From an uncultured Poribacteria bacterium (GTDB lineage Bacteria; Poribacteria; WGA-4E; PCPOR2b): a stretch of DNA of 64,000 bases. The notes under the pieces are model-generated. The model ran no database searches. It was not told the origin of the DNA and saw nothing but the letters and a program-made list of their open reading frames with translations. Positions 26,733-64,000 of the stretch are shown here, in pieces (the first letter of the stretch is position 1; every line of letters begins with the position of its first letter). Location: NCBI GenBank assembly GCA_958296125.1, contig OY282444.1, positions 682,001 to 746,000 on the forward strand. Direction: 5' to 3'. Made by a program: the position numbers and the translations under genes.

Positions 26733-27827
26733 TCACTCCCAACCGAAGGCAGTGCGTACGTATTGATTAAACGCTTGCCGGAGATAATCCCACCTATCCT
26801 TTCCCCAAATTTCTAGGGACAGGCTTGAATGCCCTGTCGCCTCCTTCAATTCCGCTTGGATAAGCCGCTGGGCCTCTCGCGAAGCACCACACAGCACGAT
26901 GGCACGTGCTTCCACACCACCGAGTTGTCTCATCCGTAAAATAGCCTCCATCCCTTTTTGTTTCACTAAGCGGTGTTCATAAGCAAGAGTGCACGAAACG
27001 ACAACAATTTGGTACCCCAGTACCGCAACTACGTCCAGTTCAAACGGTTTAACACTTGCGTCTGTCGCATTAGCTCGCCGCACATATACCTTGTGGAAGA
27101 GTTTATAGTTCCTTCGATCCGGGCTCTGCCGAGCAATATCTGCCAAGGCACGCTGGAGGGCAGCATACGCACCGTACTCAAGAAGGTCAGAGGTGAGATT
27201 CATACCGCTCCTCAGGGCCGCACAACCCCTAGCCAACTGTTGTTCACTGAGGGTTCCGGGGGCGGTGCATTCTTTCGTTCGATTGTTACCCGATTCATCC
27301 CAGTATTCGTAGGGAAATGGGCCGAGTTCAAAGCCGTTGAGTTCAGCAACGCAATGCAGACAGGGCTTGACCCCCTTGCGAGTATCTGAGACTAAGGCAT
27401 TTCCATCCCGGTCTACGAGGGTCGCGCCTGAGTCAGCACGTGGATCCAGATAGGAGGTCTCTAAGTCAATCGGTTCCGATAAAACGGCTGTAACAGCTTC
27501 TGCAGCCACAACAGTTTCAACGCACATCACCTTAGTGCCACCCGTGTAGTGCACATGAATGCAAGTGGTATTGTCTGGTAAATTGTCCTTGAGATTCCGT
27601 GTAATGTCGTCGCGTACGGTAGATGGGTTCCCCGACACCGTTTCAACAGTATCACTAGAAAACGCGCCGCGACTACATTTCAGCAACCGGTCCCGTTCGG
27701 ACTTTGTTTCCTCCGTATACACAAGTCGTACATGAATCGGGTGTGGCAAGTGATCTTTCAAATGATGCAATGCCACCCAGACAGGTATCGGATTGGTTCC
27801 AACCGTAAGAATGAGGAGTGTGCCCAT
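26733..27827 (-). CDS. Card1/Can2-like CARF nuclease (DUF1887 type), ancillary to type III CRISPR
   Basis: 364 residues. The N-terminal CARF domain shows LLILTVGTNPIPVWVALHHL and, near residue 90, HVHYTGGTKVMCVETV, the loops that bind cyclic oligoadenylate. The C-terminal domain (about 225-364) is laid out like the PD-(D/E)xK nuclease of Card1/Can2: ELDVVAVLGYQIVVVSC near 262-280, a Lys-containing helix and RMRQLGGVEARAIVLCG. In the active-site strand the usual (E/Q)CK is replaced by VSCT, so the metal-binding Glu and the catalytic Lys are missing at their normal places. Cas10 in the same locus would supply the activator. It lies downstream of cmr6, separated by a CARF-HEPN remnant. Nuclease activity is not certain. 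Confidence 0.78.
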   Translation of the reverse strand: MGTLLILTVGTNPIPVWVALHHLKDHLPHPIHVRLVYTEETKSERDRLLKCSRGAFSSDTVETVSGNPSTVRDDITRNLKDNLPDNTTCIHVHYTGGTKVMCVETVVAAEAVTAVLSEPIDLETSYLDPRADSGATLVDRDGNALVSDTRKGVKPCLHCVAELNGFELGPFPYEYWDESGNNRTKECTAPGTLSEQQLARGCAALRSGMNLTSDLLEYGAYAALQRALADIARQSPDRRNYKLFHKVYVRRANATDASVKPFELDVVAVLGYQIVVVSCTLAYEHRLVKQKGMEAILRMRQLGGVEARAIVLCGASREAQRLIQAELKEATGHSSLSLEIWGKDRWDYLRQAFNQYVRTAFGWE

Positions 27828-28213: not shown

Positions 28214-29572
28214 TTAGCCTTCAGTATCTTCATCCTTGGTGTATTCCCAAAATGTAAGTATTCCCTCATCAGCATCCGGCGTGCAACGAAAGTGTTTTGC
28301 AACGACAACCGATTCCATGTTCCCGTTACTCTTTTCAAGTTGATTGGAAACCGCTATTAACTCCTCTTGTACATCCACCAATTCGTCCGATGGTAATTTC
28401 TTGAGGGTTTTGCGAAAAGCAGTACTATAGATAAGTCGCGGAAGTTCCAAGATTCTTGACGAAAGCAGACTTGTTTTTAAGTTATCCCAGATCCATTTTC
28501 CAAAGTCCGATACCATCGCAGAATCCTCAATCGACTCAACCAAGGTTGGGAGGATTCCGGCTAATTGGCCCAGTTCAATAAAATCGTCCCGTGTCGCAAC
28601 CTGAGCCAGTTGTGCCGCGCAATTTTTAACCAACATAATGTCAATTAACTGCGGATCAGGATTGGGGTTGTTCGGATTGGAAAATTGCTTGTGAGCTTCA
28701 TCAAGGCTAATCTGGTTGGGCTTCTTGGGACGTGATCTGAGTGGAATTTGAAAGTTCGCGTTAGGTCTGAGACTTTTTGGGACACCGCTCCGCTTGCGGA
28801 AATATCCGTATCCGCTGGCGGTTTTTGCTCCCAAACCCTTGTCTCTCAATGTTTTGTCAACCCAATCTTTGGCACTGTTAATCAGATCCTGTTCCTTCGC
28901 CAAGATCACAAATCGAAAAGGCGTTTGCCCGACAGTCAAAAAGTTGATTGGGATTGGATTCTGCGTATCAGTGGGTAGCTCTGTGCCTGTGTAATAATTA
29001 GGAAAATGCGGATTCATTATATCAAGTGACAGGGGCACATTATCGATTGGATAGGCCGGGAGAAATTGAACATTTCCCGCGGATTTTTGGCTGCCAAAAA
29101 CAGCGAAGAAAGCCTTCTTTTTTTCTTGCAGATCTTCGTCGTCGCTATCTTTGATGTCTCGCATCGCCAAGTTTTCGTTGTTACTGAAATCTTCCTGAAT
29201 TACCCAACTTCGGACAACGCCCTTGAAGGTACTTCCAGGAAGATAAGGGATGCCGTAGACGTGCTCAAGCGTCATGTTAGTTTCCTGCACATGTCCGCCG
29301 CCAAGCCCAATAACCAGCCGCCCGTCGATCTCATAAAACCCGCAGAAAATACGGTAACTCTTTGCCAGATAGTGAAGTTGATTCGTCTGACGGTTTTTTA
29401 GGGGTACAATTGCGCGTTGCAAATCACCAAGATTCATTGTGTCAATTGAAAACTTAACTTTTCCACCGCTGTCTTGTTCATTTTCCAAGAAACACTGATA
29501 ACGCAAGGCGAAGTTTGAGATCTCATTGCGATTAACGAGGTCTTGTGTGTCAGATGGGCAATAAATCGGCAT
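28214..29572 (-). CDS. cmr6: Cmr6, type III-B effector subunit
   Basis: 452 residues. RAMP protein capping the Cmr complex near the 3' end of the crRNA. LVIGLGGGHVQETNMTLEHV followed by YGIPYLPGSTFKGVVRSWVI is the Cmr6 signature, and LRDKGLGAKTASGYGYF is the glycine-rich RAMP loop near residue 265. After it an extension of about 180 residues follows (beginning near GVPKSLRPN) that normal 250-320-residue Cmr6 proteins do not have; it is mostly predicted helical and has no motif I know. The start overlaps the stop of cmr5 (TGATG), so translation is coupled. It is the last intact gene of the cmr operon. Confidence 0.9.
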   Translation of the reverse strand: MPIYCPSDTQDLVNRNEISNFALRYQCFLENEQDSGGKVKFSIDTMNLGDLQRAIVPLKNRQTNQLHYLAKSYRIFCGFYEIDGRLVIGLGGGHVQETNMTLEHVYGIPYLPGSTFKGVVRSWVIQEDFSNNENLAMRDIKDSDDEDLQEKKKAFFAVFGSQKSAGNVQFLPAYPIDNVPLSLDIMNPHFPNYYTGTELPTDTQNPIPINFLTVGQTPFRFVILAKEQDLINSAKDWVDKTLRDKGLGAKTASGYGYFRKRSGVPKSLRPNANFQIPLRSRPKKPNQISLDEAHKQFSNPNNPNPDPQLIDIMLVKNCAAQLAQVATRDDFIELGQLAGILPTLVESIEDSAMVSDFGKWIWDNLKTSLLSSRILELPRLIYSTAFRKTLKKLPSDELVDVQEELIAVSNQLEKSNGNMESVVVAKHFRCTPDADEGILTFWEYTKDEDTEG

Positions 29573-29970
29573 CAGTTATCCTCCTCCACACCTTTCATCA
29601 GGCCATCAACGAACCGTCGAACCCAGTCCAATAACGCCAATGTCTCAGTCGTAATCCGGCGATATTCGTTGGAGGATTTACTAATAACGACCTCCACGAG
29701 TTCACTATTTTCACCCAATTCAATTAACTGCTTGCAGGCTAGCCATTCGCCAATCATATTATATAGTTTTGTGTTTCCGTCATCTCGTTTGTTGATGAAT
29801 GCCAATGTCTGTCCAAGCCCGTTGGTTTTGATGAGCACTGGAAGTTTTTTCGCGCCGGATTTGTACTTTTTCTTCAGATCTTCGTTAGAATTTTGGGCTA
29901 TCTCATTAACGCGATCATAAGCAAAGGCCGCACGTCCCTGTTCAATGCCTCTGATGCTGTTTTCGTTCAT
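29572..29970 (-). CDS. cmr5: Cmr5, small subunit of the type III-B complex
   Basis: 132 residues from ATG 29970, preceded by AAGGAGAC. An upstream in-frame ATG lies inside cmr4 and is less likely. RGIEQGRAAFAYDRVNEIAQ and VLIKTNGLGQTLAFINKR are the conserved helices of Cmr5, an all-alpha protein that lines the RNA channel as a filament. It starts 11 bases after cmr4 and overlaps cmr6. Confidence 0.92.
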   Translation of the reverse strand: MNENSIRGIEQGRAAFAYDRVNEIAQNSNEDLKKKYKSGAKKLPVLIKTNGLGQTLAFINKRDDGNTKLYNMIGEWLACKQLIELGENSELVEVVISKSSNEYRRITTETLALLDWVRRFVDGLMKGVEEDN

Positions 29971-29980
29971 TTCTGTCTCC

Positions 29981-30955
29981 TTAATCTCCATAGATTTTCG
30001 TCCGAACAATCCCTTTACCGATTGTTGCGTTTCCACCCAGTTGAATTACAGCCGGGAGCCCGTCTTCCAAGAATTCCATTACCTTTTCTGACTCATCGCG
30101 CTTCTCCTTTTTTTCTTGATCCGTCAACATAAAGAGACCTTTATCGGCATCGTTTTCCTGAAAGATGGGCGAGGTTAAGGCGAGTGAATAAAGAATCGAA
30201 TCGGAGGGGAGATATTCTTCGTACCACAAAGCTCCCTTTTGCACAGTTCCGGTTTCTTGGTTAATCTTGATTCGTGCGATGACCTCCGTTGAAAGTGTCA
30301 CAAAATCGCGAAAATCATCATTGCTCAACACGACGAGGTCTGTCTGCATTTTTTCGCGCCAATAACTATACTCGTCATCCGCAGGTAAGCCCTGCTTTGC
30401 AAGCCAGTTTGCCAGCTCATTTACGGTCGGATCGATCGTAACATCAAAGGTGTACTCTTCCAGCACGATCTTATTATCAGCAACAATAAGATTTGAGTAA
30501 TTGGGAATATAGTTGCTGCTCGTGATAGAGTGTTGGAAGTCAATATCACAGATCTGAAGGTCTTGTTTGAACCGCTCAAGCACAGCAGGGCAGGTAATCC
30601 ACCCGAAGACACCTGAAACCGACTTGACGGGGAAAAGCAACAAGCGAGCATCGGTAAAGCCTAGCGCGCCTGCGTATAGGTCCCCAGTCTCAGGGCCAAA
30701 GGCTAATTTAATGGCTTCCTTGTACTTAGCATCTTCGATGGAAGTGATATCCCAACCGAGCTGAAGCTGCGCTAGATTCGGTTGGGTGCTGAAAACTTCC
30801 CGGACCGCGCCCTTGATGCCCGATGCTTCGATCTTGGGATAGTTTGTATGTTTTTCGCGTTGGATTGGCAAATCGATGATGCCGAGATCGCTGCCACTTC
30901 CTACGTGCAATGATGTTTCAACAATTAAGAACAGAGGTTTTGCAGATTTGAACAT
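29981..30955 (-). CDS. cmr4: Cmr4, backbone RNase subunit
   Basis: 324 residues from ATG 30955 (AAGGAAA upstream); ATG 30973 is a possible longer start. KPLFLIVETSLHVGSGSDLG and IIDLPIQREKHTNYPKIEAS are the family signature; the Asp in GSGSDLG corresponds to the target-RNA-cleaving residue of Cmr4, so the complex should cut RNA at 6-nt spacing. GIKGAVREVF and the loop ATIGKGIVRTKI are the other RAMP glycine motifs. Several copies form the helical backbone on the crRNA. Confidence 0.94.
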   Translation of the reverse strand: MFKSAKPLFLIVETSLHVGSGSDLGIIDLPIQREKHTNYPKIEASGIKGAVREVFSTQPNLAQLQLGWDITSIEDAKYKEAIKLAFGPETGDLYAGALGFTDARLLLFPVKSVSGVFGWITCPAVLERFKQDLQICDIDFQHSITSSNYIPNYSNLIVADNKIVLEEYTFDVTIDPTVNELANWLAKQGLPADDEYSYWREKMQTDLVVLSNDDFRDFVTLSTEVIARIKINQETGTVQKGALWYEEYLPSDSILYSLALTSPIFQENDADKGLFMLTDQEKKEKRDESEKVMEFLEDGLPAVIQLGGNATIGKGIVRTKIYGD

Positions 30956-30972
30956 AATGGTTTCCTTCGTCA

Positions 30973-32064
30973 CTATTTTGACATTGCGCCAACATACGTC
31001 AGACCGAACCCTTCCTGTGTGCGTTGGGTGCCCATGTTTTTGTAATGCAAACAGTCTAAAATTGCATCAGTTTTTTCGCCGTTGATTACCCGAAAATAGT
31101 AAACACTCCCAGCAGGTACCGCACGATACACCTTTTTGGGGCGGCGGTGTGCAACATCCCATCCCCCAATAGTCACGTAATTCCCTACCGCGGCAGTAAT
31201 TAACTCAATATCCCCGTGGAAACACTTAGGCAACCAACCATCATTAAAAATCGCGTGTGTCGCTAAATAGAGTTTGAATTTTCCAGAGTCACGCACCATT
31301 TCTCGAACTGTAGAGCAGTCATCGGCTAAAATCGGGTCAGTTTTTTGGGTAGTTATCTTGTAGCTAAAACTTTTGCCCTCGCCGCCAAGTTTTATCAGTG
31401 CACTTTCGGGAAGCTGATCAATTCCATCAACATCAACGACAAATCCGAACTCCGAATCACTGAAGCGTTTCATGTTAATCCGATAAAGCATACCTTCGTC
31501 AGTTGCTAATGTCTTGTGACTTCGGGTGATACCCACCTTCGGTTCATCTATGATAAAGCCTGATTTTTCTGACGTTAGATTCGAGGTTTCACCAAGTAGG
31601 TATTTCCGCAAATTATCGCCCGAGATATAGCCACCTGCATGTTCAACCTGCACCGTGGAATTATTCCATGTCAGGAGTGTGGACAATTTGGAATTTGAGG
31701 AAAACGTATCACTTTGCGATTCCATCGATAGCGGATACAGTGTCGCGCTGCCCGATTTCTTCTCGGACACCAAATCGCGCGGGGTTGGATAGTAAAGAGG
31801 ACCATCACCACGTCCTAAGAATACCCCCTTAATCTGGATTGATGCACTTGCGAGCGACTGCTTTGTGCCAATAACCGATTTCATCTGGTCACTGGCAAAC
31901 CGCTCCATATCGCCGCAGAAAGCGATATAAGCAGTCCGCAATGCCCCCATTACTGTCGAAGGAGACGGCGTTTCAATTGAGTAGCCTTCCGATTGCTCCC
32001 CCCGCGTGAAGGGGCGGCCATCGCGGAAGAAAAAGGTGTCATTCGGTTTCAGAAACAGTCTCAT
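30973..32064 (-). CDS. cmr3: Cmr3, crRNA 5'-tag-binding RAMP subunit
   Basis: 363 residues from ATG 32064, inside the end of cas10 (26-base overlap). LKPNDTFFFRDGRPFTRGEQ and PSPSTVMGALRTAYIAFCGD are characteristic of Cmr3, which holds the 5' tag of the crRNA together with Cmr2. The C-terminus has FGLTYVGAM. An upstream in-frame start at 32115 would add 17 residues with no family match. Confidence 0.92.
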   Translation of the reverse strand: MRLFLKPNDTFFFRDGRPFTRGEQSEGYSIETPSPSTVMGALRTAYIAFCGDMERFASDQMKSVIGTKQSLASASIQIKGVFLGRGDGPLYYPTPRDLVSEKKSGSATLYPLSMESQSDTFSSNSKLSTLLTWNNSTVQVEHAGGYISGDNLRKYLLGETSNLTSEKSGFIIDEPKVGITRSHKTLATDEGMLYRINMKRFSDSEFGFVVDVDGIDQLPESALIKLGGEGKSFSYKITTQKTDPILADDCSTVREMVRDSGKFKLYLATHAIFNDGWLPKCFHGDIELITAAVGNYVTIGGWDVAHRRPKKVYRAVPAGSVYYFRVINGEKTDAILDCLHYKNMGTQRTQEGFGLTYVGAMSK

Positions 32065-33961
32065 CTGTTTTGGCCTCCCGCGCGATAAAATTGATAATCT
32101 CCAAAAAACTGACAAAGTCGCTAAATTTCATCCGCTCGTTAGCCAGCAAAGCGGTTAAATCTTGAACATTGTTATGAATCTTCTGTTGAATTTCTGTATC
32201 TGAACAAACAGTTTCGCTCGTCGCCCGTCGGATCAAGCGTTCAAGTTCCGCCTCAACTAAGTGGGGCAATTCAAGTACACCATTGCGGTTGGCGAGTCGT
32301 GCAAAGACCTCACGGAAAGTATACATGAATTTCTTGGAAACTTCCCCTTTCTTGATAATTTCAACGAGGGTTTGGCTCACTGTAATCATATCAATGTTCA
32401 CGCCACTCTCATCCTTATATTTCCATTTGAAAACCGTCTGCGAGATATTACCAGAGTGCTTCAACAGCGCGATACCGACGGCGTTTTTCCCATCAACAGA
32501 TTTTGCCTCCCGCTCCATGGCGCGGGCTCGATTAAGCACATCGCCAAGCGGTACTTTGCAGTGGGCAATACAAATACCTACGGATGCTGTTGATGCCGGA
32601 TTATCCTCTCCATTTAGGTTTGGAAAACTCCATCGAAGTCTACAAAGGATTTTCAGCAAATCGCTCAGGTTTGCCAATGCGAGTACGTCGTCACCGCCGG
32701 CATAGATGAGCTTTCCAAGGTAGTCTTTCTCCACAATTTGCTGAACTTTTGTCGTATACTCATTCAGTTTACTGCTAATCTTGGTATGTGCTTCCGAGTC
32801 CTCGGATTGCGAGATTGTCTGTCCCATTCCGTCTCCGTCAAGGACGATCACCGCAAAGTATCGGCTTGCATCGAAGCCAATATGATTGTTGATAAGCTTC
32901 CGGCGCAACTTGTCGCATTGGCTGATTACTACCCTCTGCTCCATTTGCACTTTTTTACTAATTCCGTGGTAACGTTCAAGATTTTGCTCCGAAAAAGACT
33001 CCTCAAAAAGCCAATCTCCATCAACATTCCAACTCTTTTGAATTTCTCTGAGCTTAGGAACAGGATCCACAGTCACTTCAAGCTTATTGTTATTAGTATC
33101 TTTAAACGTGCTAACTGCCTCAACAAACTTCTTGTATGTCTCTGTTGCCTCATCATCATCCGCGATTTGAAGTTTGAAGTCAGCAGTGGCCACCTCCGAG
33201 GTTGATTGAAAAGAGAGATTTTTTATCTCTGGATGTTTTTTGCCGAAATACTCCCCGGCAAGACGCTTGGTAAGACAAACCGTGCAAAGTGCCTCATCCT
33301 GTCGACAGTATTTCGCACGACGCTGGGCAAACCGCCGCCACCATTTCATCGGGTCCCCTTTGCCGTTGTGAAATATTTCCCGGTCCCCACAGAGCGAACA
33401 TTTTCGTCCACTTTCGTTAACCTGATAGAAGGCGCGGCAGTTTTTGGCAGAAGCAAGCCGCGTTCCGGTTTTGGCATACCAATCCTTATACTCCCCACGG
33501 CACCCACTTGAAACAACCCAATAGAGCTCAAAAAAATGCTTAATCTGTTTTCTAAAGAGCTCAGCCGCGTAAGTATTATCCCATGCCCCTTTATTAACAA
33601 TCTTAACAAAGATCTCAACCGCGTGTTTTGCCATCTTTTCAAATTCACATTGGACAGCCGCTTCAACATACCGCATCGTTTGGGTTAATTCGTCAATTGA
33701 CAGATTTTCACTCATGGCGAGAAAGAGGTTCGGAAACGAGGGAAGCGTAATATCTGCATTCTGCCAGGATTCAAATGGCGAACCGTTTTCAATTGAGGGA
33801 TAGATGATTTTGACACCCTCTTTATTGTAAATCTGATTAATTGCGGTTGCGTTGAGATATGATAGAATATAGCTACCAAGCCATAAATCTTCCGTTTTCC
33901 GTGCGGTTGTGATAAATTTTTGTACGGGCGTAATCGTGAATAGGATGAGATTTTCAGTCAT
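32039..33961 (-). CDS. cmr2: Cas10 (Cmr2), cyclic-oligoadenylate synthase of the type III-B complex
   Basis: 640 residues. The N-terminus (LILFTITPVQKFITTARKTE, then DLWLGSYILSYL) is the Cmr2 opening; no N-terminal HD nuclease domain is present, so DNA cleavage by this subunit is not expected. A zinc finger is seen as CSLCG near residue 190 and CTVC near 225. The first Palm domain has DGDGMGQT near 373 and the second has the active motif YAGGDDVLAL near 420, intact, so it should convert ATP to cyclic oligoadenylate when target RNA binds. The C-terminal part is helical (D4). Start ATG 33961, 9 bases after cmr1. Confidence 0.94.
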   Translation of the reverse strand: MTENLILFTITPVQKFITTARKTEDLWLGSYILSYLNATAINQIYNKEGVKIIYPSIENGSPFESWQNADITLPSFPNLFLAMSENLSIDELTQTMRYVEAAVQCEFEKMAKHAVEIFVKIVNKGAWDNTYAAELFRKQIKHFFELYWVVSSGCRGEYKDWYAKTGTRLASAKNCRAFYQVNESGRKCSLCGDREIFHNGKGDPMKWWRRFAQRRAKYCRQDEALCTVCLTKRLAGEYFGKKHPEIKNLSFQSTSEVATADFKLQIADDDEATETYKKFVEAVSTFKDTNNNKLEVTVDPVPKLREIQKSWNVDGDWLFEESFSEQNLERYHGISKKVQMEQRVVISQCDKLRRKLINNHIGFDASRYFAVIVLDGDGMGQTISQSEDSEAHTKISSKLNEYTTKVQQIVEKDYLGKLIYAGGDDVLALANLSDLLKILCRLRWSFPNLNGEDNPASTASVGICIAHCKVPLGDVLNRARAMEREAKSVDGKNAVGIALLKHSGNISQTVFKWKYKDESGVNIDMITVSQTLVEIIKKGEVSKKFMYTFREVFARLANRNGVLELPHLVEAELERLIRRATSETVCSDTEIQQKIHNNVQDLTALLANERMKFSDFVSFLEIINFIAREAKTDETVSETE

Positions 33962-33970
33962 TATGTATTC

Positions 33971-34801
33971 CTATGCCAAAATTGCGGCAATAAAAGCCAC
34001 CTGTTTCTGCTTATAGTTGTGAGGGTCCGCGCCTGGAAAAACAGAGTTAAGTTGTGTGACAATCGGGACAAATTTATTGCCAATTTTCTGAATACGAACG
34101 TGAATCGGCGAAGCCATCCGTGGAGAGGCACTACCCAAAGCGTTATCGCTATGGTCATGTGTTGCCTGCCCGATCCTGCGGAGTAGGTCATTGACATTAT
34201 CCCATAATGTATTACTGAAATGGACTGCTTTAATCACTGGGTAGTCTGGAAGCCGAATTGTGGGGTCAACCTGAATCTTATTAGGATTTTCCTGGAATCG
34301 CCCTGGTGAAATCCCGATAAGCGTTTGATACACTTTTTTTTCAAGTTCCGCGACGGTCTGAAAACTCCAATCTTGATAACGGATTGAACCAAATCCCCTT
34401 CGTGAGCGATTACCAACGCCGCCGAGCAGGAAGCTAATTTCAGCAATTTGCCTGTATTGGTTAAGCTGTAGGGCTACGAACTTGAGGTTAAATGTGCTGT
34501 TAGGACGGTAAGCTTGCCTCTTAAAGCTACCAGATTTATGCGGAAGAGGGGCACATTCGTCAAACGGTAATGCTGGTACGCTGGGAATACGAATCGATAA
34601 AGGCGATCTGCCTTGCGTATTACCGAATAAGCGGCTTTCCTCTTTGTGCAGATTGTCTACGTTCATTTTCCCCACCGTTGCCCGCCACCAGTAGCGAAAC
34701 AAGGCTTTGAACGGCGGTGGTCGAAGTTCGAGCGTTTGGTTGTCTGCCCCATGAAGAAACATCGGTGTCACGGTTTCAAGTTTCAACTGAATACTTTTCA
34801 T
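33971..34801 (-). CDS. cmr1: Cmr1, RAMP subunit of the type III-B complex
   Basis: 276 residues, at the short end for Cmr1. LKLETVTPMFLHGADNQTLE, LRPPPFKALFRYWWRA and GGVGNRSRRGFGSIRY are its signature (FKxxFRxWWRA and the glycine-rich loop). It binds near the 3' end of the crRNA at the target-capture end. It is the first gene of the operon cmr1-cas10-cmr3-cmr4-cmr5-cmr6. The 145 bases upstream contain no gene and then a direct repeat. Confidence 0.92.
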   Translation of the reverse strand: MKSIQLKLETVTPMFLHGADNQTLELRPPPFKALFRYWWRATVGKMNVDNLHKEESRLFGNTQGRSPLSIRIPSVPALPFDECAPLPHKSGSFKRQAYRPNSTFNLKFVALQLNQYRQIAEISFLLGGVGNRSRRGFGSIRYQDWSFQTVAELEKKVYQTLIGISPGRFQENPNKIQVDPTIRLPDYPVIKAVHFSNTLWDNVNDLLRRIGQATHDHSDNALGSASPRMASPIHVRIQKIGNKFVPIVTQLNSVFPGADPHNYKQKQVAFIAAILA

Positions 34802-34947
34802 TGTGCTTTTCCTTGAATTGGGCTTGGCCAGGGGATAGGTTTCCCGAAGTAATAAGACTGTGTAAAATCAGTTTAACCTGTCTAACAATCTTTTGTCAAA
34901 AAAATTGCCATTGAAATACAGTTGATACGTCATCACGCTGTTTAATT

Positions 34948-35133
34948 TGCATCCCCTGAACACTCCTCGATGGCCGACAAATAGAGTGTAACACAACATC
35001 ACTTTAATGTCAAATGCCAACGTTTTTTGTGCGCGTCTGGACGGGCAATAAATTGCCCTACTACAAACCAGGAGGGTTTCAGCTTCGGTCAAGCCAATGG
35101 CAATCACTCTCCACAAACGGATCACTGTCCTGC
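34948..35133. repeat. Direct repeat, copy 1 (flanks the CARF-HEPN-CARF gene)
   Basis: 186 bases from tgcatcccctgaacactc to gatcactgtcctgc, about 85% identical by eye to 37099-37282 with almost no length change. It includes the last 18 codons and 3' flank of the CARF gene, a hairpin (gggcaat, aa, attgccc near 35043) and the block acacaacatcactttaatgt. It is not a CRISPR repeat: only two copies, too long, and coding in part. Confidence 0.8.
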
Positions 35134-36860
35134 TCTTCTATTGGCCGGCGGTCGACGAGGGCGAAGCGTTTTATCGGACGATCCAATTTCTGGGCATCTT
35201 CAGAGAGCCGTTGCACAATCAGGCCCATCAGTGTTGTGCCACCCGTCATGTTGGCCACGACCTTGTCGGAATTTAACAGATAGCGATGGGCATGTTCCGC
35301 TGCTGCATCGATCTCATCAAAACCGCCGAACGGATCTGTCAATTCGATCTGTTTAATAGGACCTTCAAAGTCCGCACGTTTGGCAGCTTCAGTAATACTA
35401 CCTGCTGATGTGGCTGAACAAATCACCAGACAGGTATCAGGTCGGGCGACCTTTAATGCTGAGAACAACACGCCTGGCTTCGTCCCTTGCGGTGAAAGCA
35501 GAAGCCGACCACCATTACCGCCCAGCGGTGGCAGGTCAATCCTACCTTTTTTCAGTTCATTCCAAAAACCTCGAACATCTTCAAGAGAATTGGGAGGTTC
35601 TTCAAGCAGATCTTCACGCATTGCATGATGGTGGAGTGCATTGCGTAACTCATTCGTCAGTTGATTCCAGAAGGTGCCGAATTCCTTCTGCTCATCTGTA
35701 ATAGTGGATCTGAACGCCGGATCTCTGACAAAGGCTCCGATAGCCCCAAGGCGATGCTCATACGACTGCCGTAGTTTGTAAGTTAGCCAAGCTCCAGTTT
35801 TCTCGTAGGACTGGCCTGAGTTCCAAATTGCCCAAGAAATTACCCACTCACGCATCAAGCCCACTGCTAGTGAAAGTTGGTCGCGACCCAAGTACAAATC
35901 AATCATATAAGCCTGCCGCTTCAACTCATTTTCATCTAAAGGGATTTTGCGTTTCCAGTTCTTCCCTCCGCTTGGAGGCGTTGCAAAAGCCGATTTTTCT
36001 GCTGCGCTGACGATAGCCTCAACGAGTTCGGCAATCAGGGGCGGGAGTCCGGCAAAATTTATAGTGGGAAGTTGTTGAATTGGAGTAATGAGTGCCTTAC
36101 TGGCTTTTTCTAATTCTAGCGGCAAGGCGGACTCGTAAGCAAATGCATACTTTTTGAGCCAATCGACCGAGCTTTTGGCTTGTTTGGCTTGCTCGTTACG
36201 CTGCGTCCCCGCTTTCTGGTTACCGGACTTGAACAGCTTGCTCTTTTTCTGCATTAGTACATCTGCCAATGGCTGAAGGAGGTCCGCCATAGGCTTTGTT
36301 GTCCCCTGATCTCGAAACATCCGCACCGCGTGGAACCACTCCGGCAATTCAAGTAATGGCTGCAGGTCAATGATGGGTTTAGGCGTGTTTGGTGGAGATC
36401 CTTCTATCATGCCGTAATAGGCACCGCGAATCTTGACACCGCGAAGCGATTTAAGGTAGAGCACTAAAGCATAGAAGATAAATGGAAAATGTCGTAGCCC
36501 TTGCGTGACATCAAGCGTGAGTTCCGCGCCTTCTGGAATGCGTTCGGCAACAGATTCAAGAATCTGACCGATTTCTTCACGGCTGCTTCCGTTGGGGATA
36601 TCAACCCTTTCAGGGTCAAAGCCGAGGATTTGGAAAATTCCTGCCTGAAAGGTTTTCCACGTCGTATTCTTGGCCTCTTGCGTGATCACAGCGACAACGC
36701 TGTTAGGCAGCTGCTCAGGTTTTAGAAGTTGCACCAAAGCTAATGGGGTAAGTTCCGCTTCGGCCGGTTGCCCATCCAACTCGTATTCCGTTTTTCGGGC
36801 CTGCGTCCCCAAACTTGTCAATAGAATATGATCCGATGGCTGGTAGATCGTCGTCTCCAT
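35079..36860 (-). CDS. CARF-HEPN-CARF protein, type III CRISPR ancillary RNase
   Basis: 593 residues from ATG 36860 (GGAG upstream; an upstream TTG at 36875 is less likely). Residues about 8-160 are a CARF domain of the TM1812/Csx1 kind (ILLTSLGTQARKTEYELDGQ, then LTLDVTQGLRHFPFIFYAL and YYGMIEG). Residues about 300-440 are helical and contain RNALHHHAM near 404, an Rx4H motif of HEPN RNases. Residues about 447-593 look like a second CARF domain: LLLSPQGTKPGVLFSALKVA, then CLVICSATSAGS, and NMTGGTTLMGLIVQRL near 537. Two sensor domains around one HEPN is unusual; ordinary Csx1/Csm6 has one. It should cut RNA non-specifically when Cas10 makes cyclic oligoadenylate. It lies 277 bases upstream of cmr1, within a direct repeat pair. 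Confidence 0.85.
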   Translation of the reverse strand: METTIYQPSDHILLTSLGTQARKTEYELDGQPAEAELTPLALVQLLKPEQLPNSVVAVITQEAKNTTWKTFQAGIFQILGFDPERVDIPNGSSREEIGQILESVAERIPEGAELTLDVTQGLRHFPFIFYALVLYLKSLRGVKIRGAYYGMIEGSPPNTPKPIIDLQPLLELPEWFHAVRMFRDQGTTKPMADLLQPLADVLMQKKSKLFKSGNQKAGTQRNEQAKQAKSSVDWLKKYAFAYESALPLELEKASKALITPIQQLPTINFAGLPPLIAELVEAIVSAAEKSAFATPPSGGKNWKRKIPLDENELKRQAYMIDLYLGRDQLSLAVGLMREWVISWAIWNSGQSYEKTGAWLTYKLRQSYEHRLGAIGAFVRDPAFRSTITDEQKEFGTFWNQLTNELRNALHHHAMREDLLEEPPNSLEDVRGFWNELKKGRIDLPPLGGNGGRLLLSPQGTKPGVLFSALKVARPDTCLVICSATSAGSITEAAKRADFEGPIKQIELTDPFGGFDEIDAAAEHAHRYLLNSDKVVANMTGGTTLMGLIVQRLSEDAQKLDRPIKRFALVDRRPIEEQDSDPFVESDCHWLDRS

Positions 36861-36957
36861 AGGAATTGGCTCCAATTTCTGTTTGTAAGCTTAAACTGAA
36901 TAGTCCTGTGCCTGTGATTGAGATACAGTTCCTACGTCATCCCGTAACTTTGTCTGC

Positions 36958-37096
36958 TAGGACTTATGCACTTCAGATTACAGTAGCTCAATTTAGGGAG
37001 CGTCCGTGCCTCCGTTCCGCCTGGTCTCGGAACGGACCCGATCTCATCGAGAGGTTGCCCCTACGAGACTTTGAACGTTCAACTACGTAAGTCCTA
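36958..37096. mobile_element. 139-base MITE with inverted ends and 5-base target duplication
   Basis: The left end is TAGGACTTATG and the right end reads CGTAAGTCCTA, its reverse complement with one change. TCTGC occurs directly on both sides (36953-36957 and 37097-37101), as expected for a target-site duplication. It encodes nothing and must have been moved by a transposase elsewhere. It separates the CARF-HEPN-CARF promoter region from the outer direct repeat. Confidence 0.75.
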
Positions 37097-37098
37097 TC

Positions 37099-37282
37099 TG
37101 CATCCCCTGAACACTCTTCGATGGCTGACAAATAGAGTGTAACACAACATCACTTTAATGTCAAATGCCAACGTTTTTTCGCGCTGCTGGACGGGCAATA
37201 AATTGCCATACTACAAGCCAGAGCGTTTCAGCTTCAATTAAGTCTGTGAGAATCTCCCTGCACAAACGGATTACTGTCCTGC
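37099..37282. repeat. Direct repeat, copy 2, with a vestigial CARF gene 3' end
   Basis: This is the second copy of 34948-35133. Read on the minus strand, 37282-37234 encodes QDSNPFVQGDSHRLN and a stop, matching the end of the intact protein (QDSDPFVESDCHWLDRS). Upstream of it the match stops and a TAA appears in frame, so only the last codons of a former paralogue remain. The 3' flank is better conserved than the codons. Confidence 0.75.
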
Positions 37283-60053: not shown

Positions 60054-63000
60054 CTATTTCAAGATCATCATCTTCCGCGTGGCGGAATAATCGCTCGCCC
60101 TCAGGGTGTAAAAGTAAATTCCACTCGCTACCCGCTCCCCCAACCCGTTTCTGCCATCCCAGTAGATTGCCTTCGATCGACTCTCGTAGACCGCTGCAAT
60201 TCGATGCCCAACCTCAATACGGCGCGTCATACGGCCGCTCGAGTCATAGATAGTCAATGTAACCAAAGCATCCTCCGCCAACCGATACGGTATCCATGTC
60301 TCCGGGTTAAACGGATTTGGATAGTTTGCTAACAGTTCTGTTTCCGAGGGTATCTCGTAGGCAACCAATGCTGGCAGCTCAATCCGACTCCGCTTCACAT
60401 CTTCAGCCGTCACCGTATACCGCAACGGCTCCACTCCGATTAACGGCGAGGAAGATCTGACAGAGATTTCAAGGCTATCCCCAATCATAGCCGCCCGCCC
60501 CGTCTCCACGTCAACCACGGTGAGTCGATAACCCTCCTTCTCATCCCCGATTCCGATAGGGAATGCAGAGCTGCGTTCCGTGCTGACCGATCTGCCGGTG
60601 GAGAGGTTCTTGATGATGACACGGAAACCCAACCCTGACCGTAGGTGGGGCCTCTTGTCCCACCCACCTACGCGGGAAACGATTGACCCGCTCACCGCCA
60701 AAATGGGAGTGGTATCCGTCACTTGGATACCTGTAAGTGAGGAATGCAGATCCCCATTCCCTACCGATGGGGCGGCAACTAGGGCTGAGGTATTATACCA
60801 CCCACCGCCGGAAATAGCCACCGTTGTCGCCCTCTGAGCCCTCAGGAGAAAGGATTGCCCGCCTGTGATAGGGATATCACCCTCGTCACCCGCTTGTCTA
60901 ACCGTATGGAACTCCCCGTTATCCGAAACGGTAATGGCAATAACATTGTCCCGGATTCCATCGAGCGCAAGGCCGCTCACCCGGGCTATCCGTGAATCTT
61001 TCAACGGCACCCCTACTAGGTTGGAACCCGGGTGCAACGTTATCGATGCCCTCCTCTCTCCCCCGTCAGCGGTGAGAGAGGAGGGGGTGCCAAGCGCATC
61101 GCCTCGCAGACGAACCGCCACCGGGGCTTTCATGGCTGCAATGATACCTCTGTCCGCCATCAACGGCGGGTCATCGGACGTGCCTTTGTCTGGTGCCCCA
61201 GAATAGCTGAACCATCGCTGAGTAACCGGGTCATGGGTGCTGAGGAGGTTGACGGTGGCTGCCCCACCGAGGGCATCGTAGAGAGCGGATACCGATTCGA
61301 TGGACTTTTCCACTCCGTCAACGGCAGTCACCTTCAGGGGGAGGTGAATCAAGCTGATGCCCGCCGGCACCGACCAGAAGTATTCCGTAGGGACCTTATC
61401 GTAGACAGCATTAAAGGTCACCGATGACTTAATCCCAGCAGTCACCTTGACGGTGTTGGTTCCCAGGTTTGGCCCCAGCGCGAGCGCACTCTCCGCCCTG
61501 CCGTTTTTACCCGTCGTTGTGCGCGTGACACTGAGCGCACCACCGCCCGCGGTGACGGCAAAAGTGACCGAAATCCCTTCAAGCAAGGAACCGTGTTCAT
61601 CCTGCGCTTCAACCACGAATGGGTTCGACAGCGGTGCGAAGGATATCCCTTTCTGGTTATCCCCCGAGATTTTCAGAAGGGCCCGGTGGGGGCGGTTGTC
61701 AAACTTTACCTCAATCCCTTTCGCCTGAAGGACGGGGATGTGCGTGTGGATGGAGGCGTAACTCAGCGGGTTGCCATTAAGATACAGTCCTGTGCTGTCC
61801 CATTCTGTCCCTGTCAAGTTTAACCCCAATAGGGGGGACACATCCGAGATAGCGTTGGTGTCAAGATACAGCGTTTTCAGTTGTGTCAACCCTGCCAATG
61901 CAGATATATCCGAGATAGCGTTGTCGTAAAGATACAGCGTATTCAGTTGTGTCAACCCCACCAACGCAGATATATCCGAGATTGCGTTGGTGCCAAGATA
62001 CAGCGTATCCAGTTGTGCCAACCCCGCCAACGCAGATATATCCGAGATTGCGTTGTTGGTAAGATCCAGCCATGTCAGTTGTGTCAACCCCGCCAATGCA
62101 GATATATCCGAGATTGCGTTGTCGTAAAGAGACAGCGAATTCAGTTGCATCAACCCCAAAAGCGCAGATATATCCGAGATAGCGTTGGTGTCAAGATACA
62201 GTCCATTCAGTTGTGTCAACCCCGCCAACGCAGATATATCCGAGATAGCGTTCCAACCAAGATACAGCGTATCCAGTTGTGTCAACCCCAAAAGCGGCGA
62301 AAGATTTGATACTGCATTACTGTTGACATAGCCCTCTCCGCTGACCCACTCACCATCAAGCAACAGCTCTCTGAGAGTGTGTGCATATTCAAGGCCGGTG
62401 AGGTCTTGAATGTTCGCGTTTCGCGCGTCAAGATGGGTCAAAGTTGTTATCTCCCACGCGATAAGCTCCGCACCGACCGGCTTGCCGAGTCCCTCTGCTA
62501 TCTTCGCGCGAAGAGCCGCATCAGGAATAGTCACGGGGGTATTGGCATTGGTGAGGGTAGGGGGGACCGCCGTTGCAGTGAAACGCACCGGCTGCGAAAT
62601 CTCTGCGGCAGCCACAGAGACAGTAGCGATGCCTACGGTTTGCCCCAGCGTCAAGCGTGCCTGTGCCCTGCCGGTGAGATCGGTTGTGGCCGTTGTCACA
62701 CTGAGCTCTCCGCCCCCAGCGGTGACCGCAAAGGTGACAGGCACCCCCGAAAACGCCCGATTCTGCTCATCCCGCACTTCCACGACAAACGGGCGTGGCA
62801 ACGCCGCATTGACTGCGGCATGCTGCTCAACCCCTGAGATTTTCATGAGCGTCGTCGGCGTGCGGTTGTCAAACTTTACCTCAACCCCTTTCGCCTGAAT
62901 GGCGGGGATGTGCGTGTTGAGAGAGGCGTAACTCAGCGGGTTGCCATTAAGATACAGCCCTGTGCTGTCCCACTGTGTCCCTGTCAAGTTTAACTCCAAT

Positions 63001-64000
63001 AGGGGGGACACATCCGAGATAGCGTTGGTGCCAAGATTCAGCGTATTCAGTTCTGTCAACCCCGCCAGCGCAGATATATCCGAGATAGCGGTGTTGCCAA
63101 GATTCAGCGTATTCAGTTCTGTCAACCCTGCCAGCGCAGATATGTCCGAGATAGCGGTGTTGTAAAGATACAGCGTATTCAGTCGTGTTAACCCCGCCAG
63201 CGCAGATATATCCGAGATAGCGTTCCAACCAAGATACAGCTCATTCAGTTGTGTCAAGCCCGCCAGCGCGGATATACCCGAGATAGCGGTGTTGTGAAGA
63301 TACAGCCATGTCAGTTGTGTCAAGCCCGCCAGCGCAGATATATCCGAGATAGCGTTGTTGTAAAGATCCAGCCCACTCAGTTGTGTCAACCCCGAAAGCG
63401 CAGATATGTCCGAGATGGAGGTGCGACTAAGATTCAACCGTGTCAGTTGTGTCAACCCCGCCAGCGCAGATATGTCCGAGATAGCGGTGTTGTTAAGAGA
63501 CAGCCATGTCAGTCCTGTCAACCCCGCCAACGCAGATATATCCGAGATAACGGCATCATTAAGAGACAGCCATGTCAGTCCTGTCAACCCCGCCAGCACA
63601 GATATATCCGAGATTGCGGTGCCACTAAGATCCAGTCCTGTCAGTTGTGTCAACCCCGAAAGCGGCGAAAAATTTGATACTGCATTACTGTTGACATAAC
63701 CCTCTCCACTGACCCACTCACCACCAAGCAACAGCTCTTTGAGAGTGTGTGCATGTTCAAGACCCGTGAGGTCTGTTATCTGGCGGTTGGGGGCATAAAT
63801 CCTCCTTAAGTTTAGCATCGTGTGCGTCGTGAGATCCGAAGAACCGATGGCTTCCCGCACGACCGCCGCTAAATTGGCATCCGGCATGGACACAACTTCG
63901 GAGGGCAGCAGCAGGGAAGTCACGTCAATTGGATACCTCCGACTCGATGAGATGTTTCCATGCACATCGATAACACGAAGCGATACAGACTCACTTTTTG
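60054..64000 (-). CDS. Giant LRR/Ig-like surface protein with FlgD-like tail, 5'-partial
   Basis: More than 1303 residues; the frame is open to the right edge (it reads SVSLRVIDVHG before a GTG at 63965), so the N-terminus lies outside. Two similar modules follow one another. Each has a cap (TGLExAHTLxELLLxGEWVS), a run of 22-residue leucine-rich repeats (ISDISALAGLTQLTxLxL), and a Big_1-type Ig domain (VPVTFAVTAGGGELSVTTAT; ISVTFAVTAGGGALSVTRTT). A beta-rich region follows (about 840-1200), and the last 90 residues are the FlgD Ig-like tail (LLANYPNPFNPETWIPYRLA, ending ATRKMMILK). This suggests an exported adhesin-like protein resembling internalins. The tail is the same kind as in the 44010 protein. 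Confidence 0.88.
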   Translation of the reverse strand, partial: KSESVSLRVIDVHGNISSSRRYPIDVTSLLLPSEVVSMPDANLAAVVREAIGSSDLTTHTMLNLRRIYAPNRQITDLTGLEHAHTLKELLLGGEWVSGEGYVNSNAVSNFSPLSGLTQLTGLDLSGTAISDISVLAGLTGLTWLSLNDAVISDISALAGLTGLTWLSLNNTAISDISALAGLTQLTRLNLSRTSISDISALSGLTQLSGLDLYNNAISDISALAGLTQLTWLYLHNTAISGISALAGLTQLNELYLGWNAISDISALAGLTRLNTLYLYNTAISDISALAGLTELNTLNLGNTAISDISALAGLTELNTLNLGTNAISDVSPLLELNLTGTQWDSTGLYLNGNPLSYASLNTHIPAIQAKGVEVKFDNRTPTTLMKISGVEQHAAVNAALPRPFVVEVRDEQNRAFSGVPVTFAVTAGGGELSVTTATTDLTGRAQARLTLGQTVGIATVSVAAAEISQPVRFTATAVPPTLTNANTPVTIPDAALRAKIAEGLGKPVGAELIAWEITTLTHLDARNANIQDLTGLEYAHTLRELLLDGEWVSGEGYVNSNAVSNLSPLLGLTQLDTLYLGWNAISDISALAGLTQLNGLYLDTNAISDISALLGLMQLNSLSLYDNAISDISALAGLTQLTWLDLTNNAISDISALAGLAQLDTLYLGTNAISDISALVGLTQLNTLYLYDNAISDISALAGLTQLKTLYLDTNAISDVSPLLGLNLTGTEWDSTGLYLNGNPLSYASIHTHIPVLQAKGIEVKFDNRPHRALLKISGDNQKGISFAPLSNPFVVEAQDEHGSLLEGISVTFAVTAGGGALSVTRTTTGKNGRAESALALGPNLGTNTVKVTAGIKSSVTFNAVYDKVPTEYFWSVPAGISLIHLPLKVTAVDGVEKSIESVSALYDALGGAATVNLLSTHDPVTQRWFSYSGAPDKGTSDDPPLMADRGIIAAMKAPVAVRLRGDALGTPSSLTADGGERRASITLHPGSNLVGVPLKDSRIARVSGLALDGIRDNVIAITVSDNGEFHTVRQAGDEGDIPITGGQSFLLRAQRATTVAISGGGWYNTSALVAAPSVGNGDLHSSLTGIQVTDTTPILAVSGSIVSRVGGWDKRPHLRSGLGFRVIIKNLSTGRSVSTERSSAFPIGIGDEKEGYRLTVVDVETGRAAMIGDSLEISVRSSSPLIGVEPLRYTVTAEDVKRSRIELPALVAYEIPSETELLANYPNPFNPETWIPYRLAEDALVTLTIYDSSGRMTRRIEVGHRIAAVYESRSKAIYWDGRNGLGERVASGIYFYTLRASDYSATRKMMILK
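61830..62310 (-). repeat. Tandem 66-base LRR units, block 2
   Basis: About seven units of 66 bases with the core cagatatatccgagat(a/t)gcgtt encode 22-residue leucine-rich repeats. Units are very similar to each other and to block 1 at 62990-63665, which shows recent duplication or conversion. Confidence 0.85.
62990..63665 (-). repeat. Tandem 66-base LRR units, block 1
   Basis: About ten units with the same core, encoding the first leucine-rich repeat run of the protein. Third-position differences are few and several neighbouring units are nearly identical, so the number of units may vary between strains. Confidence 0.85.

Follow-up and report, generated by a model that had tools for sequence, protein, structure and literature searches.

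Genes and features of the locus

A CARF-HEPN-CARF gene occupies positions 35079..36860 (-) of the window, the whole 64-kb stretch of DNA that was analysed. Its open reading frame is uninterrupted in the ORF list of the window, and it heads a minus-strand type III-B (Cmr) operon. The product has 593 residues if translation starts at the ATG at 36860 and 598 if it starts at a TTG at 36875; the ATG is the better start because a GGAG lies about 9 nt 5' of it, and the length of 593 residues given in the first-pass annotation is preferred on these grounds. Residue numbers used here are those of the 598-residue form, from which 5 is subtracted to obtain the 593-residue numbering.

Profile matches place cmr1 (33971..34801), cas10/cmr2 (32039..33961), cmr3 (30973..32115), cmr4 (29981..30973), cmr5 (29572..30036) and a cmr6 with a C-terminal extension (28214..29572) on the same strand. 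The Cas10 sequence retains an intact cyclase-type GGDD (AGGDDVLAL), and the CARF-HEPN-CARF gene thus adjoins Cmr1-6 with a GGDD-bearing Cas10 predicted to be cyclase-competent. The operon also contains a CARF-PD-(D/E)XK effector of the Can2/Card1-like kind (26733..27827 (-)), identified by PADLOC CARF4--CARF_PDDEXK (7e-39); Pfam CARF_Card1 matches it at 8e-4, under the curated cut-off, and it keeps TGGTK. No CRISPR array was found within the 64-kb window. The CARF-HEPN-CARF protein is a predicted Csx1-type effector of this type III-B system.

The gene is bracketed by direct repeats of about 190 bp, as found by sequence comparison. The downstream copy (34945..35133) includes the last codons of the gene, and the upstream copy (37096..37282), 88% identical, carries QDSNPFVQGDSHRLN*, a relic of the 3' end of another C-terminal CARF. 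The only other trace of the repeat found in the genome is 38 bp of a third copy, and a part of the repeat of about 59 bp lies on both sides of the orthologue in L033.

Other features of the locus and its genome may be recorded here. Residues ~311-423 of Cmr6 (28214-29572 (-)) are homologous to positions 205-315 of the 359 in CARF7--CARF_RelE PDLC01934 (E 1.7e-17), and in L039 an equally extended Cmr6 adjoins a CARF7-RelE protein, with 33% identity over 91 aa; such a module, present both in a Cmr subunit and in an effector, could serve for docking. Elsewhere in the genome, a CARF7 (PF09651) gene (G000:C1:2623901-2624314) suggests another cyclic oligoadenylate (cOA)-responsive locus that could share its activator with the Cmr locus. 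Seventeen 66-nt direct repeats in two arrays at 61837-63666 are consistent with 22-aa leucine-rich-type protein repeats.

Domain organization and predicted fold

The CARF-HEPN-CARF domain order read in the first pass was confirmed by TIGR02221, alignment of the Rx4H motif, a PADLOC match, AlphaFold2 and Foldseek. The N-terminal CARF (N-CARF; residues ~14-192, 36300..36836 (-)) was assigned by TIGR02221 and by a phmmer match to the Csx1-Crn2 CARF 8y75. The score of 82.2 bits to TIGR02221/cas_TM1812, above the cut-off of 76.25, bears out the TM1812/Csx1 type that had been proposed (TM1812/CARF2), and the domain has DVTQGLRHFP (DVTQG) where DxTHG is expected. A single HEPN RNase domain is present by alignment and AlphaFold2 (residues ~307-442, 35550..35957 (-)), delimited by alignment, AlphaFold2 helices and PADLOC CARF_HEPN models. 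Its Rx4H motif, R411-NALH-H416 (35628..35645 (-)), was correctly picked out at the first reading: the alignment with 13 relatives shows R411, N412 and H416 to be invariant.

The C-terminal CARF (C-CARF) comprises residues 452-598 (35082..35522 (-)). The first-pass annotation had read a second CARF, of a different type, in the last ~150 residues and had named structure prediction and fold search as the way to check it; both uphold the reading. An AlphaFold2 model of the last 154 residues (19 sequences) has beta-alpha CARF topology with pLDDT 91.7 and pTM 0.87, and the full-length model (27-sequence alignment) has pLDDT 91.1 and pTM 0.84. Foldseek of the C-terminal model against the PDB gave 45 matches at E<=0.001; among the matches listed all are CARF proteins, including the CARFs of TtCsm6, EiCsm6, Can2, Cam1 and Crn1. 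With the full-length model the top match is the Marinitoga Csx1-Crn2 fusion. Profile comparisons of C-CARF reached the Can2 CARF 8bao (8.5e-5) and, by hhalign, TTHB144 (7e-6), and TIGR02710 is matched by 7 of 19 C-CARF members, such that C-CARF lies nearer to the TIGR02710/Csm6-Can2 CARFs and N-CARF is of TM1812/CARF2 type. A scan of residues 445-598 gave no match to a Crn2, Csx3, Csx16 or Csx20 profile.

The whole protein matches the PADLOC model PDLC01840 (CARF2--CARF_HEPN_CARF) with E 5.8e-142 and 472 bits, residues 14-596 aligning to positions 3-544 of 547, and the other two models of that name rank after it. Mean identity among relatives is 49.8% for C-CARF, 48.9% for N-CARF and 37.5% for the linker and HEPN. 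Because the match is full length and C-CARF is as conserved as N-CARF, the architecture is not a product of chance.

Distribution of the architecture

PADLOC contains three models named CARF2--CARF_HEPN_CARF (PDLC01838-01840), a naming that appears to derive from the classification of CARF domains in Makarova et al. (2020, NAR 48:8828). In the home phylum of the window's genome the C-CARF profile was found in 8 of 85 genomes, six having the fusion (7 genes) and two a stand-alone gene. A scan of GTDB contigs yielded further fusions in MAGs labelled Latescibacteria, Latescibacterota and Planctomycetota. When 392 genomes were sampled from the phylum of the Planctomycetota MAG (G085, L037), nine contained C-CARF; seven, G085 included, have both CARFs and HEPN in one ORF of about 560-660 aa, and the other two are a fused ORF cut by a contig start and a contig with masked bases in the gene. 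Since fusions occur in genomes of the home phylum, in GTDB MAGs and in sampled genomes of another phylum, the CARF-HEPN-CARF architecture is widespread, and it is already named in a public library. The novelty implied at first for a two-CARF layout is therefore withdrawn, many proteins of the same architecture being found in the PADLOC models and as fusions in at least two phyla. The protein is a further member of the catalogued CARF2--CARF_HEPN_CARF group and, as such, an expected variation; what is added beyond the catalogue is the pattern of gain and loss, the stand-alone form and an unusual pocket motif.

Loss and stand-alone forms of the second CARF

The second CARF is a module that can be separated from the rest of the protein. 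Close orthologues, with 63-70% identity across CARF-HEPN, stop directly after HEPN (L008/L035, L009/L038 and L010/L036), and in a tree of the CARF-HEPN part these unfused proteins nest among fused copies at 2 or 3 places, support for the placement of L009 being only 0.66. A relic, HFVESNFHWLN*, just past the stop in L035 points to loss of C-CARF by deletion. As some close orthologues have lost C-CARF with CARF-HEPN intact, the domain appears to be an add-on and not the activating sensor.

Stand-alone relatives with the same motifs were also found. That in L040 has 147 aa and opens a Cmr operon, and that in L041 has 140 aa and begins about 30 bp downstream of a gene whose product has a Card1 nuclease domain at its end. 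In a further locus of the home phylum (L046), Csx3 occupies the C-terminal slot of the CARF2-HEPN protein (594 bits to CARF_HEPN_CSX3), and PADLOC also has Csx16 and Csx20 fusions of the CARF2-HEPN core.

Two of these contigs contain other genes of interest. Beside the stand-alone C-CARF, L040:2870-4362 (+) encodes a 288-aa protein that neither Pfam nor PADLOC matched, together with a CARF protein of 207 aa in which no effector domain was recognised. In L036:4147-5748 (+) a Can2/Card1-like effector (residues 181-532) is in frame with an N-terminal RAMP-like stretch of ~180 aa, which reflects a fusion or else an accident of frame in the MAG.

Residues of the C-CARF pocket

Placement of the pocket was inferred from strand order and alignment. 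Its face is the most conserved part of C-CARF in 19 fused and stand-alone copies, in which G464, G468, L470, A473, S487, G518, G545, G546, T548, D575, R577 and P586 are invariant. Motif I, SPQGTKPGVLFSA (residues 461-473, 35457..35495 (-)), aligns with G58-T59-S60 of TtCsm6; the Thr/Ser is not conserved, position 465 being T, R, G, L, N, M or V and 466 mostly K/R/S/T in the 19 copies. Motif II, TGGTT (544-548, 35232..35246 (-)), places T548 at K137 of TtCsm6 and K94 of TTHB144, and the lysine of the K94/K106/K137 type is absent, with Thr in 19/19 C-CARFs. A third motif, DRRPIEEQDSDP (575-586, 35118..35153 (-); DRR..EQ..P), has D575, R577 and P586 invariant and R576 and Q582 nearly so among the 19 copies; it aligns with mobile loop 165-179 of TtCsm6 and takes the place of that cA4-closing loop. 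In the same alignment S487 falls at T81, an adenine contact, T544/G546 at T133/G135, and L573/R576 at the cleavage residues Y161/N164.

In characterized proteins the pocket lysine is critical. K137 of TtCsm6 is essential for cA4 binding and cleavage, the mobile loop shutting over cA4 (PMC10897365); K94 of TTHB144 is essential for cA4 binding/cleavage (PMC6599890), as is the pocket K90 in Can1 (PMC6981274). The second CARF of Can1 contacts cA4 through T384, and Can1 does not cut cA4 (PMC6981274). Judged by its residues, C-CARF has the look of a CARF that binds a ligand, but it does not resemble a ring nuclease of the Crn1 type.

Proposed role and its alternatives

The means by which type III CRISPR effectors are turned off are under active study. 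For C-CARF, an even chance is given to the reading that it clears cOA, by cleavage or sequestration; taken separately, cleavage is put at a little below even and sequestration is quite improbable. Upon target recognition Cas10 would make cOA, most likely cA4 as in Csx1/Can2 loci, and the N-CARF dimer would bind it and switch on the HEPN dimer to cut RNA, both steps being taken from the protein families involved. The C-terminal CARFs of the dimer would provide a second binding site that removes the activator, mainly through slow cleavage (ring nuclease), else through sequestration, such that RNase activity would be restricted in time or confined to activator levels above a threshold. In its mode of action the protein would resemble the Csx1-Crn2 fusion, with the added domain being of CARF type instead, and cleavage, if any, would use residues other than those of Crn1/TtCsm6, perhaps R576/R577 of the DRR motif.

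Activator removal is favoured because there are stand-alone CARFs without an effector, known ring nucleases in the same slot, and the precedent of Csx1-Crn2. The L040 and L041 proteins have no attached effector domain to drive, and a stand-alone CARF that lacks an effector is not known to have another established role in type III loci. The nearest solved structure to the full-length protein is that of the Csx1-Crn2 ribonuclease-ring nuclease fusion, and the nearest to C-CARF include, among the matches listed, the cA4-degrading TtCsm6 and Crn1. Csx3 was not detectable in the window's own genome, whose locus has two effectors, one of them of the Can2 type, and this also counts for clearing. The Csx1-Crn2 fusion has been shown to limit its own activity, its two cA4 sites being in competition (PMC7293037), and effectors of the Can2 type have no ring nuclease activity of their own and are accompanied by ring nucleases in 66% of loci (PMC12409355).

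Against simple Crn1-type catalysis are the replacement of the pocket Lys by Thr (19/19), the unconserved Thr/Ser of motif I and the presence of stand-alone Csx3 at two fused loci. In G021 and G078 these Csx3-like genes lie immediately upstream of the fused gene (L047:15003-15368 (-) and L039:7471-7977 (+)), giving two candidate activator-clearing proteins in one locus. As loci with two ring nucleases are rare (10/242, about 4%; PMC12409355), this counts against clearing, as does the second CARF of Can1, which also has Thr at the pocket position and binds cA4 but does not cleave it. C-CARF homologues were not found in phages, plasmids or viruses, which weighs in the same direction: 123 pattern matches of the profile in viral contigs included 0 relatives, the stand-alone C-CARF had no homologue in phage and plasmid records, and no BFVD fold matched at E<=0.001. 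The ring-nuclease idea of the first-pass annotation thus gains from the stand-alone homologues and from the ring nucleases found in the same slot, but the canonical residues are missing and Csx3 co-occurs in two loci.

A model of complementarity, with C-CARF replacing a separate ring nuclease, was dropped, since in G021 and G078 Csx3 accompanies the fused gene and since a CARF7_DUF2103 gene, found beside two unfused orthologues, follows the fused gene in L045 too. Related searches are to be read within their scope. In a PADLOC scan of 72 small ORFs from fused loci the 25 commonest families were listed, and a ring nuclease could be present beyond them; searches for Csx16 in 13 genomes and for Csx3 in 9 Planctomycetota genomes gave no match in any, and carry no weight on the presence of either.

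A rather unlikely alternative is that C-CARF is a second sensor, for another ring size or the same ligand, that tunes HEPN allosterically as a dual-input switch. The intact pocket motifs would suit it, Thr for Lys would permit a CARF to bind and not cleave, which is what the second CARF of Can1 does (PMC6981274), and Csx3 in two loci argues against a redundant clearing domain; however, the stand-alone homologues have no effector to drive, several losses of C-CARF leave the CARF-HEPN enzyme intact, and mixed ring sizes in one locus are very rare (PMC11229360). It is improbable that C-CARF is a pure sponge that binds cA4 tightly, never cuts it, and so sets an activation threshold. Such a function agrees with a conserved pocket devoid of the canonical catalytic residues, and some Csx15 proteins are documented non-enzymatic sponges (PMC13148439), but the capacity of a sponge present 1:1 with the sensor would be small beside the large pools of cOA in type III systems (an argument made in PMC13148439).

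CARF domains dimerise, and a C-CARF that has lost its ligand function, serving dimerisation or docking only, would be in keeping with this, as would the literature searched, which contained no activity data for the CARF2--CARF_HEPN_CARF family or for the C-CARF subfamily. This reading is highly improbable, with invariant residues on pocket-facing loops (G464, S487, TGGTT, D575, R577) that the stand-alone copies have in common. A frameshift, misassembly or fusion artefact, for which the 3'-end relic upstream of the gene and between direct repeats might speak, was rejected as having a negligible chance, the same full-length architecture recurring in genomes that are independent of each other and come from at least two phyla, and the C-terminal frame being conserved to its last residues.

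For activator clearing, a broader proposal is put forward tentatively, at somewhat under an even chance: C-CARF and its stand-alone relatives may be an unrecognised cOA-clearing family that uses the DRR..EQ..P loop and not the Crn1/Csm6 lysine, acting in cis when fused to Csx1 and in trans as proteins of 140-147 aa beside Card1-type nucleases or Cmr operons. That more families of ring nucleases will come to light is expected by workers on these systems (PMC12409355). Orthologue pairs with and without C-CARF, together with the small stand-alone versions, make the role of this CARF subfamily directly testable.

Comparison with known systems

The closest folds and profile matches for C-CARF, among the matches listed, are the CARFs of TtCsm6 and TTHB144, and Crn1, which differ in having the pocket Lys and motif I Thr/Ser that C-CARF does not. 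Can1 (TTHB155) likewise has two CARFs, the second with GTT as in C-CARF, but is monomeric, has a PD-(D/E)XK nuclease, and its two CARFs share one cA4 (PMC6981274). Csm6-2 (CARF-HEPN-CARF-HEPN), seen in type III-D loci (PMC11229360), also has two CARFs per chain; it is a fused Csm6 dimer with two HEPNs, whereas the present protein has one HEPN and unlike CARFs and is not a Csm6-2. The Csx1-Crn2 protein of Marinitoga (8y6z, 8y7g) combines, in the same way, a Csx1-type CARF-HEPN with an extra C-terminal cOA-related domain, but there this is Crn2/DUF1874, unrelated to CARF and with catalytic H495. CARF2--CARF_HEPN_CSX3 (L046) shares the CARF2-HEPN core and has Csx3 in the slot held here by C-CARF. 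With CARF2--CARF_HEPN_CARF (PADLOC PDLC01838-01840) the domain order is the same, the match is full length, and nothing essential differs.
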